Below, in pieces: positions 1,541 through 3,528 of a DNA stretch of 64,000 nucleotides. The DNA lies in the NCBI RefSeq assembly GCF_021026335.1, contig NZ_JAJNCY010000001.1, positions 1-64,000 of the forward strand, written 5' to 3'. Both the position numbers and the translations under genes were made by a program. How positions within the stretch are numbered: position 1 is the stretch's first letter; the number at the start of each line of letters is the position of its first letter. Source of the DNA: Rhizobium sp. C1 (GTDB lineage Bacteria > Pseudomonadota > Alphaproteobacteria > Rhizobiales > Rhizobiaceae). The notes below the pieces were generated by a model. That model was given only the letters and a program-made list of their open reading frames with translations. It was not told the origin of the DNA and did no database searches.

Positions 1541-1666
1541 ATGACGAACAGCTTGAAGAAATTTTCGAACGAAATCGCCCGCGGCCATCAGGTCATGCGG
1601 AGCCGTTCTGCTGCCGTCAAATCGCTTCTTCTTCTCGGCCTTACGCGCGGTTGCCGGGTCCTCTGA
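1541..1666 (+). CDS. Leucine-rich leader peptide of leuA (leuL-like)
   Basis: The frame encodes 41 residues and ends AAVKSLLLLGLTRGCRVL, with seven leucines. Four are consecutive codons CTT CTT CTT CTC at 1626-1637 and the last codon before TGA is also Leu. The cluster of regulatory-amino-acid codons directly before a biosynthetic gene is the hallmark of ribosome-mediated attenuation. There is no good Shine-Dalgarno before the ATG at 1541, but the predicted transcription start coincides with it, as described for the leaderless trpL of Sinorhizobium. An internal ATG at 1595 would give a 23-residue peptide with the same Leu run. Confidence 0.75.
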   Translation: MTNSLKKFSNEIARGHQVMRSRSAAVKSLLLLGLTRGCRVL

Positions 1667-1830
1667 AGAAGCGCCCGGCGGCCGAAAGACCGCCTCGGGC
1701 TCTCAAATCGCTTCTTCGCAATCACCCCATGAACTGAATTTCGGGCCGTTTTGCCCGCATTCGTGTATCGCCAAACCTGCGCCCGTGCGCTAAGAGCGAT
1801 CGCGACTGGAAGTTTCGAGAAGAAGCGATG
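1623..1830 (+). promoter_or_regulatory. leuA leader attenuator with alternating complementary 9-mers
   Basis: Four segments alternate. A: CGCTTCTTC at 1623-1631, inside the leader Leu codons. B: GAAGAAGCG at 1665-1673, overlapping the leader stop codon. C: CGCTTCTTC at 1709-1717. D: GAAGAAGCG at 1819-1827, which is the leuA ribosome-binding site directly before the ATG. C:D pairing extends to 11 bp and enters the AUG; A:D can reach 12 bp. B:C is closed by an inner GC stem (1673-1681 with 1690-1700). A further small hairpin, CGGGC-cgtttt-GCCCG, lies at about 1742-1757. No U-run follows any stem, so control of translation rather than of termination is inferred. A ribosome stalled on Leu codons covers A, B:C forms and D is open. 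A ribosome at the stop codon covers B, so C closes D. Confidence 0.65.
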
Positions 1831-3528
1831 ATCAAGCAGACCTACCACCCCCAGGACGGCATGCCGAATGCAGGCGTGAAGTACCAACCCTATCCGCAGA
1901 TTGCCCTGCAGGACCGCACCTGGCCTTCCAAGACCATCGTGACGCCGCCGATCTGGTGCTCGGTCGACCTGCGCGACGGCAATCAGGCGCTCATCAATCC
2001 GATGGGCCATGATCGCAAGGCGCGGATGTTCCAGCTGCTGCTCGACATGGGCTTCAAGGAAATCGAGATCGGTTTCCCCTCCGCCTCACAGACCGATTTC
2101 GACTTCGCCCGCTGGTGTGTGGAAGAGGGCGGTGTGCCGGAAGATGTCTCCCTGCAGGTGCTGGTCCAGTGCCGGCCGGAGCTGATCACGCGGACCTTCG
2201 AGGCGCTGGAAGGCGCGACGAAGCCGATCGTGCATTTCTACAACTCGACCTCCGAACTGCAGCGCCGCGTGGTGTTCGGCAAGGATGTTGCCGGCATCAA
2301 GCAGATTGCCGTCGATGCGGCCAAGATGATCCGCGACATGGCCGAGAAGGCCGGCGGCGGTTTCCGTTTTGAATATTCGCCGGAAAGCTTCACGGGCACG
2401 GAACTCGAAGTGGCTTTGGAAATCTCCAATGCCGTCATCGAGGTCATGCAGCCGACCCCGGATAACAAGCTGATCCTCAACCTGCCGGCGACCGTCGAAA
2501 TGGCGACGCCGAACATCTATGCCGACCAGATCGAATGGATGTGCCGCAATATCCACGATCGCGGCAATGTCATCGTCTCGCTGCATCCGCATAACGACCG
2601 CGGCACGGGCATCGCTGCCACCGAACTCGGCCTGATGGCGGGTGCTGACCGTGTCGAGGGCACGCTGTTCGGCAATGGCGAGCGCACCGGCAATGTCGAT
2701 ATCGTGACGCTTGCGCTGAACATGTTCACGCAAGGCGTGGATCCGAAGCTCGACTGCTCCGACATCGAGCGGATCAAGGCCGTCTATGAATATTCGAACG
2801 AGCTGAAAATCCCGGAACGTCATCCTTATGTCGGCGAACTGGTCTACACGGCCTTCTCAGGCTCGCATCAGGATGCGATCAACAAGGGCATGAAGGCGAT
2901 CAAGGTTGCCAACAAGCCGCTCTGGGAAGTGCCCTATCTGCCGATCGACCCGCAGGATGTCGGCCGCTCCTACGAGGCGATCATCCGCATCAACTCGCAG
3001 TCGGGCAAGGGCGGTATCGCCTATATCATGCAGGAAGATTACGGCATCAACCTGCCGCGCAACCTGCAGGTCGAGTACCGCGACGAAATTCAGCGGATCA
3101 CTGACGAAGAGGGCGTGGAAGTTCAGCCGAAGCGCATCTACGATCACTTTATCGAGCGCTATGTGACGCAGCCGGGCGCACGGCTGAAGTTCGTCGATCA
3201 CCATTCCTATGTCGATTCGGCGCATCCGGGTCTGCGCATCGTCGCGGCCGAGATTACCGACAAGGGCGAGAAGAAGCGGATCGAGGGCAGGGGAACCGGG
3301 CCCATCGACGGTTTCGTCAATGCGCTCTCGACCTATCTCGGCTTCGAGATGACGGTGAATGATTACTCCGAGCACTCGCTCCAGCATGGCTCGAATGCCT
3401 CGGCCATCTCCTATGTCGAAGTCTCTGCCAAGGGCCGCAAGCTCTTCGGAGCCGGCATCAATACCAATATTGTGACCTCGTCACTCGAGGCCATCGTGTC
3501 GGCGGCCAACAGGCTGATTTCCGAGTAA
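1828..3528 (+). CDS. leuA: 2-isopropylmalate synthase
   Basis: This is the first committed enzyme of leucine synthesis: it condenses acetyl-CoA with 2-oxoisovalerate. The 566-residue protein has the DRE-TIM/HMGL-like barrel, with the signature DLRDGNQALINPM near residue 45 and the metal-binding LHPHNDRGTG near residue 255. A C-terminal LeuA dimer/allosteric domain follows (about 430-566). The length and the start IKQTYHPQDGMP fit the longer LeuA type seen in proteobacteria and actinobacteria. The start is supported by GAGAAGAAG just upstream, which is also the target of the leader described here. The gene is monocistronic and ends at a strong terminator hairpin. Confidence 0.96.
   Translation: MIKQTYHPQDGMPNAGVKYQPYPQIALQDRTWPSKTIVTPPIWCSVDLRDGNQALINPMGHDRKARMFQLLLDMGFKEIEIGFPSASQTDFDFARWCVEEGGVPEDVSLQVLVQCRPELITRTFEALEGATKPIVHFYNSTSELQRRVVFGKDVAGIKQIAVDAAKMIRDMAEKAGGGFRFEYSPESFTGTELEVALEISNAVIEVMQPTPDNKLILNLPATVEMATPNIYADQIEWMCRNIHDRGNVIVSLHPHNDRGTGIAATELGLMAGADRVEGTLFGNGERTGNVDIVTLALNMFTQGVDPKLDCSDIERIKAVYEYSNELKIPERHPYVGELVYTAFSGSHQDAINKGMKAIKVANKPLWEVPYLPIDPQDVGRSYEAIIRINSQSGKGGIAYIMQEDYGINLPRNLQVEYRDEIQRITDEEGVEVQPKRIYDHFIERYVTQPGARLKFVDHHSYVDSAHPGLRIVAAEITDKGEKKRIEGRGTGPIDGFVNALSTYLGFEMTVNDYSEHSLQHGSNASAISYVEVSAKGRKLFGAGINTNIVTSSLEAIVSAANRLISE

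Follow-up and report, generated by a model that had tools for sequence, protein, structure and literature searches.

A conserved leader RNA upstream of leuA in Rhizobium and its relatives, probably a leucine-sensing translational attenuator

Near the beginning of the window, as we call the whole 64-kb stretch of DNA analyzed here, a leucine-rich leader ORF of 41 codons that is predicted to be translated (1541-1666, plus strand; MTNSLKKFSNEIARGHQVMRSRSAAVKSLLLLGLTRGCRVL, with its stop codon at 1664-1666) precedes leuA (1828-3528, plus strand), whose 566-aa product, 2-isopropylmalate synthase, scores above the cut-off for TIGR00970 (leuA_yeast). The Leu codons CTT CTT CTT CTC of the leader lie at 1625-1636 and an additional CTT at 1640-1642, which confirms the 41-codon leader with a run of four Leu codons described in an earlier interpretation made from the letters alone (the sequence-only reading). 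That reading had also reported four 9-mers in alternating order, and all of them are present: CGCTTCTTC begins at 1623 and 1709, and GAAGAAGCG begins at 1665 and 1819. Their arrangement goes beyond what chance would give. Alternating A-B-A-B 9-mers within 290 nt appeared in 0/2000 dinucleotide shuffles, the longest repeat in any shuffle being 7, and in the other 290-nt stretches of the window, taken in steps of 10, the alternating repeat never exceeded 7.

We refer to the plus-strand regions around these 9-mers as segments A to D. Segment A (1621-1636) is the Leu codon run with its 5' flank, and holds the putative sensor codons as well as a candidate anti-Shine-Dalgarno strand. Segment B (1665-1673) overlaps the leader stop codon. 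Segment C (1707-1717) can be the partner of B or a candidate anti-Shine-Dalgarno strand for leuA, and segment D (1817-1830), the leuA Shine-Dalgarno region and start codon, is complementary to A and C. The C:D helix has 11 bp (1707-1717 with 1819-1829) and takes in the AU of the AUG, as the sequence-only reading had it. Because the same 13 nt (AAATCGCTTCTTC) occur in both A and C, at 1619 and 1705, D has A as a second possible partner (13 bp, 1621-1633 with 1817-1829); A:D enclosing B:C is the minimum-energy fold of 1541-1850 when no constraint is set. Two further helices lie between these segments. In P1, a 5' arm within the leader ORF (segment 1, 1648-1659, plus strand) pairs with 1673-1684 (segment 2, plus strand), so that B sits in the P1 loop, its last base being also the last base of P1. 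Segment 2 serves in addition as the 5' arm of P2, whose 3' arm is at 1688-1700 (plus strand); P2 is the inner stem of the B...C hairpin and excludes P1. Among 4227 Rfam families none matched any part of the window at the gathering score, and none matched 1500-1900 to E = 5. Our covariance model R1 gave no second site in the same genome at E <= 1, with 150 of 5531 first-look candidates scored. Across the order, where 18 candidates were scored per genome, it matched 7 genomes out of 199, a result that does not serve as a negative.

Relatives were collected by a LeuA search of named genomes, and the sample is skewed to near relatives because the best LeuA matches were taken (the best 80 of 588). 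One of them (L070), whose contig begins 3 bases before the match, was dropped; the 85 sequences compared consist of the remaining 79, five same-genus genomes and the window. Their record titles name Rhizobium, Sinorhizobium, Agrobacterium, Shinella, Hoeflea, Mesorhizobium, Phyllobacterium, Brucella, Ochrobactrum, Aurantimonas, an uncultured Bartonella and Pleomorphomonas, and one reads just "Alphaproteobacteria bacterium". A LeuA match occurs in 146/151 genomes of the family, the upstream regions read being those among the 85. The sequence-only reading had asked for a comparison of the segments among relatives. In 85/85 sequences there is a Leu-rich leader ORF that ends in a core made of the P1 5' arm, the stop codon, the purine-rich B and the P1 3' arm, a count anchored on motifs that were written after the sequences had been read (7 variants of each of two motifs, every one allowing at most 3 mismatches). 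The element is also readable ahead of leuA in S. meliloti strain Ak57 (L155). The comparison indicates that this regulatory RNA is real and is conserved in every relative examined (85 sequences). In a few loci, for example L037, other codons interrupt the Leu run. The final Leu codon, followed by A in the window (CTTA, 1640-1643, plus strand), is a CTT at a fixed distance from P1 in 84/85 loci, and the A follows it in at least 90% of the 64 aligned loci. The last 14 codons before P1 hold 482 Leu codons over the 85 loci, of which 272 are CTT and 51 CTG; leuA of the window has 37 Leu codons, 23 of them CTG and one CTT.

We aligned the 85 sequences on the leader ATG, taken as the most upstream in-frame ATG at most 130 nt from P1. 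A motif like CTTGC (at least 4/5) lies ahead of this ATG in 77/85 loci, compared with 30% in shuffles, and a CTATAA-like box (at least 5/6) in 33/85, compared with 5%. Relative to the ATG, T is found at -13 in 61/85 loci, A at -12 in 60/85 and C at -1 in 71/85, and an SD-like motif was seen upstream in 3/85. The predicted promoter of the leader transcript in the window comprises TTGCCA (1505-1510), a 16 nt spacer and GTATAT (1527-1532) on the plus strand, 1505-1532 in all; a generic sigma-70 scan of 1400-1900 found no promoter, the predicted one included. From these positions the leader RNA would start at the leader AUG or no more than 1-2 bases from it, and the leader ORF is probably translated from a leaderless mRNA. 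The trpL of S. meliloti is leaderless (PMC10117765; leuA is absent from its main text).

Helices were evaluated on a hand-picked alignment of 64/85 loci. RNAalifold predicted the 12-bp P1 unaided on this 64-sequence alignment, with 99.5% of 768 cells paired. Its double changes affect 3 pairs, a number reached by 11/500 shuffles, and 29 cells against a shuffle mean of 7.5 (0/500). For B:C, 93.5% of 444 cells are paired in the 64 loci, the innermost counted pair being unpaired in 22/64. Its covariation score was reached in 0/500 shuffles, and double changes affect 5/7 pairs and 20 cells, against a shuffle mean of 4.5 (0/500). B and C change jointly: the window has GAAGAAGCG with CGCTTCTTC, L087 of the same genus GAAAGAGCGC with GCGCTCTTTC, L079 GGGGCG with CGCCCC, and L030 TAAGGAGC with GCTCCTTA. 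P2 is present in the best local fold of 84/84 scored loci (1/85 was omitted for the position of C), a count without shuffle control, and a U-A or A-U replaces the common pair at positions 7, 8 and 9 of segment 2 in 4, 1 and 3 loci, respectively.

Because kinship inflates shuffle tests, we also used a permutation in which the pairing of each strand with its own partner is compared with its pairing with the partners of other loci. It was run on 45 representatives with 6-mer overlap below 0.25, which are still related, so that the p-values are inexact. The cognate excess was -2.68 kcal/mol for P1 and -2.5 kcal/mol for B:C (0/5000 permutations each), and -0.56 kcal/mol for segment 2 with the P2 3' arm (p 0.003). 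In the same 45 representatives no cognate preference was found between the P1 5' arm and the P2 3' arm (+0.12 kcal/mol, p 0.72), in B:D (-0.2, p 0.11) or in A:C (-0.03, p 0.42). By these comparisons P1, B:C and P2 co-vary. P1 and P2 are mutually exclusive because they use the same strand, and keeping both is what a switch needs. A:B had been considered for the role of segments 1 and 2, and was not supported in the 45 representatives (cognate excess -0.3 kcal/mol, p 0.085).

C prefers its own D. The cognate excess of C:D was -1.24 kcal/mol, with p 0.0005 and 0.0002 in two runs and 0/10,000 in a third; shuffling D brought it to 0.01 +- 0.27, and six flanking windows gave p 0.08-0.37. Before the final test the leuA starts were reassigned by hand in 16 loci (and in three more separately), and with the first assignment of starts p was 0.0012 (all 85). 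C:D reaches -9 kcal/mol or lower in 65/85 loci and is weaker than -6 kcal/mol in five (L042, L057, L072, L078 and L079). A:D showed a similar excess, -1.26 to -1.28 kcal/mol (p 0.0002 and 0.001). Its six other control windows were not significant, and shuffled D still gave -0.49 +- 0.39 (lowest of 15, -1.16); part of the A:D signal is composition. When 17 leader windows of 20 nt were set against D, the Leu run gave p 0.013 and 0.001, C 0.001 and its neighbour 0.054, and the remaining 13 had p >= 0.125. The C:D and A:D signals are not independent, since A and C resemble each other. The actual Leu codons also beat the mean of random CTN codons in pairing with D in 36/45 loci (mean -2.06 kcal/mol), compared with 7, 13, 13 and 16 of 45 for four control windows; this test drew CTN evenly, and a preference for CTT/CTC of other cause would give the same result. 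The permutations thus indicate that C and A pair preferentially with their own D, the control being less clean for A.

These tests bear on the pairing scheme of the sequence-only reading, which had been partly right. B:C and C:D as alternatives are supported, and the covariation check on relatives that it had suggested was positive for both. Its A:B as the first alternative was not borne out, as the relatives keep a 12-bp P1 just downstream of the Leu codons; it had missed P1, the inner P2 and the possibility that the Leu codons pair with the Shine-Dalgarno site of leuA. By eye, a possible hairpin formed by a TTGCCATCGC...GATCGGYTATGGCA-like stretch between C and leuA was noticed in several Rhizobiaceae, such as L006 and L030, and is not clear in the window.

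A different leader type was found among 40 leuA upstream regions from other families of the order (Hyphomicrobiales; L106-L145). In 34/40 the leader ends in the Leu run, one or two residues, P and the stop codon, and keeps CTTA; the six left out are L111, L112, L132 and L135, without a leader by the pattern, and L121 and L145, which the pattern misread. TCAGGGG or TTAGGGG, complementary to the stop region, follows in 31/34. In the 34 loci the Leu run prefers its own leuA Shine-Dalgarno site (p 0.018; control window 0.48). CTTA thus recurs amid unrelated surroundings, and its A is unexplained by the structures tested. Most other families among 111 sampled genomes of the order have only a LeuA about 27% identical to that of the window, which is of the TIGR00970 type. 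L106-L110 have a LeuA 60-62% identical and yet carry the other-family leader, so that gene type and leader type are not simply linked. Leu-rich leaders were also observed before leuA genes 50-53% identical to that of the window: on a Shinella sumterensis plasmid (L159) the leader ends in LTGGRRA and a stop; on a Cupriavidus metallidurans megaplasmid (L158) it ends in LPIGCRA and a stop, and its GGTCGCCGGGCC and GGTTGCCGGGCC are similar to the P1 5' arm; and on a Sphingomonas parapaucimobilis plasmid (L156) it ends in LRLIRP and a stop, like the other-family type. A Burkholderia locus (L157) has no obvious Leu-rich leader.

The best reading of the Rhizobiaceae locus, and in our judgement a likely one, is a leader-peptide-dependent translational attenuator of leuA. 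We infer its order of events, ribosome footprints, leader translation, leucine regulation and the switch itself as follows. Two pyrimidine-rich strands, the Leu codon run A and the downstream strand C, would be able to hide the leuA Shine-Dalgarno site. With ample leucine, ribosomes would traverse the leader and stop at 1664-1666, covering B; C would then be free for D, A would be uncovered behind the ribosome and also able to pair with D, and leuA would be off. With the leader untranslated, A:D around B:C, or P1 together with C:D, would likewise keep leuA off. When Leu-tRNA is short, the ribosome would wait on the Leu codons and cover A, and at the last Leu codon the foot of P1 as well. Segment 2 would then enter P2 and the B:C hairpin, B would hold C, and D would be open. 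A ribosome short of leucine thus probably opens leuA, and this reasoning supports the logic of the sequence-only reading, by which a stall at Leu turns leuA on and arrival at the stop codon turns it off.

The modeled energies agree with this scheme in part. We folded the leader with a ribosome assumed to extend 12 nt beyond the first base of the A-site codon and to block everything upstream. In the window, the predicted cost of opening the leuA start is 16.1 kcal/mol when the leader is untranslated and 15.3 with the ribosome at the stop, and it falls to 8.9 with a stall at the last Leu codon and to 10.2-11.0 at the four earlier ones. Over the 85 loci the predicted median is 9.65 without translation, 7.17 with the ribosome at the stop and 5.83 with a stall at the last Leu codon. 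The modeled difference, stop minus stall, exceeds 1 kcal/mol in 47/85 loci and is below -1 in 8/85; L081 is opposite in direction (stalled 19.9, stop 16.0). The predicted minimum fold of the stalled state in the window keeps C:D, so B:C must be assumed to form first, before D is transcribed. The modeled switch therefore has mostly the right direction and a modest size, and at equilibrium the model makes a weak switch.

Concerning termination, the interval from the Leu run to leuA contains a hairpin with a T tract in 1/85 loci (L049, not the window), and TTTTT occurs anywhere from P1 to leuA in 9/85. A simple scan of the plus strand from 1400 to 1900 gave no terminator-like site, in line with the claim of the sequence-only reading that no U-run follows the stems. 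Its preference for Shine-Dalgarno sequestration over an intrinsic terminator gains support from this scarcity and from the cognate pairing of C with D. The absence of an intrinsic terminator in 84/85 loci would also suit Rho-dependent attenuation, in which the leader ribosome would govern Rho loading on the roughly 160 untranslated nt that separate the leader stop from leuA, the helices would guide it and Shine-Dalgarno pairing would be secondary. For a DUF1127 gene of S. meliloti, attenuation that depends on translation and presumably on Rho has been put forward (PMC12218461). This explanation does not predict the match of C and the Leu codons to their own leuA Shine-Dalgarno region, although that match is not a test of Rho itself, and we regard it as unlikely.

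Another possibility is that the RNA is a protein- or ligand-binding pseudoknot in which the leader peptide has little weight. P1 and B:C could coexist, with B in the P1 loop, as an H-type pseudoknot, and such coexistence could alter the mechanism. A protein was also favoured for the LEU element, found upstream of leuA in Actinobacteria, because leader mutations of Streptomyces leuA had either some effect inconsistent with classical attenuation or none (PMC1262725, citing Craster 1999). However, the same authors did not find the candidate protein outside Actinobacteria, a Leu-rich leader is present in 85/85 loci with the last CTT at its fixed place in 84/85, and P2, which is incompatible with P1, co-varies too, as a switch needs. 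We therefore consider the pseudoknot quite improbable as the main device.

Classical transcription attenuation with an intrinsic terminator, already disfavoured, appears very unlikely. The leader is rich in the regulated amino acid, the helices are mutually exclusive, the 1:2, 2:3, 3:4 layout is that of trp-type attenuators, and the genome's own trp and ilvB leaders look to be of that kind; against it stand the single terminator (L049) and the few TTTTT tracts among the 85 loci, found by a detector that recovers both positive controls. The controls, U-tract terminators that follow this genome's trp and ilvB leaders, were found with the same kind of scan (2/2), which also calls three unrelated sites farther upstream of trp. 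A trp-leader pattern modeled on the S. meliloti peptide found nothing, and the trp and ilvB genes were located by family instead (L146/L148). Their leaders read MKNALTIANWWWAR (trp) and MNKMISLIVVGRRMGRMV (ilvB), each followed by a stop, with the AUG, by eye, about 10 nt past a promoter-like box. That the four 9-mers are a chance outcome of Leu codons and a purine-rich Shine-Dalgarno site is hardly conceivable, for although A and D are repetitive and of low complexity, 0/2000 shuffles reproduced the pattern and B and C change jointly in relatives such as L087 and L079, which already refutes chance for these two segments.

If the translational attenuator is correct, leucine synthesis in the sampled Rhizobiaceae (Sinorhizobium, Rhizobium, Agrobacterium, Mesorhizobium and relatives) would gain a regulator that lies outside the 4227 Rfam families, and leuA would be controlled at translation, unlike what the trp and ilvB leader terminators of the same genome suggest. 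The rnTrpL/peTrpL system of S. meliloti and the trp and ilvB attenuators of Rhizobiaceae resemble the leuA leader in having a promoter near the leader AUG and codons for the amino acid, and they too work through alternative helices. In the same genome, U-tract terminators follow the trp and ilvB leaders, whereas none is predicted for leuA, which therefore appears different in kind. In E. coli, the leu attenuator (leuL) places a Leu-rich leader ahead of leuA and has an intrinsic terminator, in contrast with the leuA leader of the window, which has no Rfam match. In translational attenuation of the ermC type, in antibiotic-resistance genes, stalling in a leader ORF likewise frees the Shine-Dalgarno site of the next gene; there a drug arrests the ribosome, whereas for leuA of the window the cause would be leucine starvation. 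In T-boxes the uncharged tRNA binds directly, without a leader peptide. For actinobacterial ileS, translational T-boxes have been proposed in which a lack of the amino acid opens the Shine-Dalgarno site (PMC1262725).

Among the literature matches listed, considered by title and abstract opening and with subscription papers mostly outside, no leuA leader switch is described for Alphaproteobacteria. Vitreschak et al. 2004, on proteobacterial attenuators, and Craster et al. 1999 may mention alphaproteobacterial leuA. The sequence-only reading knew of no description of such a mechanism. In the closest known system, the actinobacterial LEU element, a base stem between the Leu run and the Shine-Dalgarno site is described that encloses a pseudoknot or an alternative hairpin (PMC1262725, Seliverstov et al. 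2005). The window and the LEU element have in common leuA, a leader ORF with a Leu run, the pairing of this run with the leuA Shine-Dalgarno site and no reported terminator. Of the two inner structures of the LEU element, the alternative hairpin on the same base stem has its counterpart in B:C with P2 in the window, and P1 with B:C could form the pseudoknot, although P2, which excludes P1, co-varies too. The window differs in belonging to the Alphaproteobacteria, in its longer leader peptide (41 codons), in the extra strand C that can pair with the Shine-Dalgarno site and in the statistical support for each helix.

We also examined four actinobacterial leuA leaders, from plasmid-labelled records of Tsukamurella, Nonomuraea, Nocardia and Microbacterium. 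All have a Leu run, and they measure 13-16 codons by the last in-frame start, longer starts being possible in two. A hairpin of -28 to -36 kcal/mol comes right after the Leu run and spans the stop codon (shuffles 0.003-0.023). Pairing of the Leu run with the Shine-Dalgarno site is better than in shuffles for Microbacterium (0.027) and borderline for Nocardia (0.083), while for Nonomuraea (0.23) and Tsukamurella (0.45) it does not exceed them; a B:C-like pairing beats shuffles in 2/4. Judged by its sequence and predicted helices, the architecture of the window matches the description of the LEU element; common descent is a separate question. The comparison would reopen the question of leader translation in the LEU element, which was put aside by its authors in 2005 (PMC1262725); in the leaders compared here, both the cognate pairing and the choice of codons suggest that the Leu codons are an anti-Shine-Dalgarno strand. 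More broadly, and tentatively, it is possible that the Leu codons both sense leucine and hide the leuA Shine-Dalgarno site, that a stalled ribosome opens the gene by occupying this anti-Shine-Dalgarno strand, that the choice of CTT/CTC is set by the pairing, and that such switches, often on leaderless leaders, form one old class, shared by Alphaproteobacteria, Betaproteobacteria and Actinobacteria, that first came to light as the LEU element, the Rhizobiaceae adding C as a backup lock. For the locus itself, the comparison points most likely to a translational leucine-sensing attenuator that is LEU-like but occurs in another phylum and has an extra locking strand.
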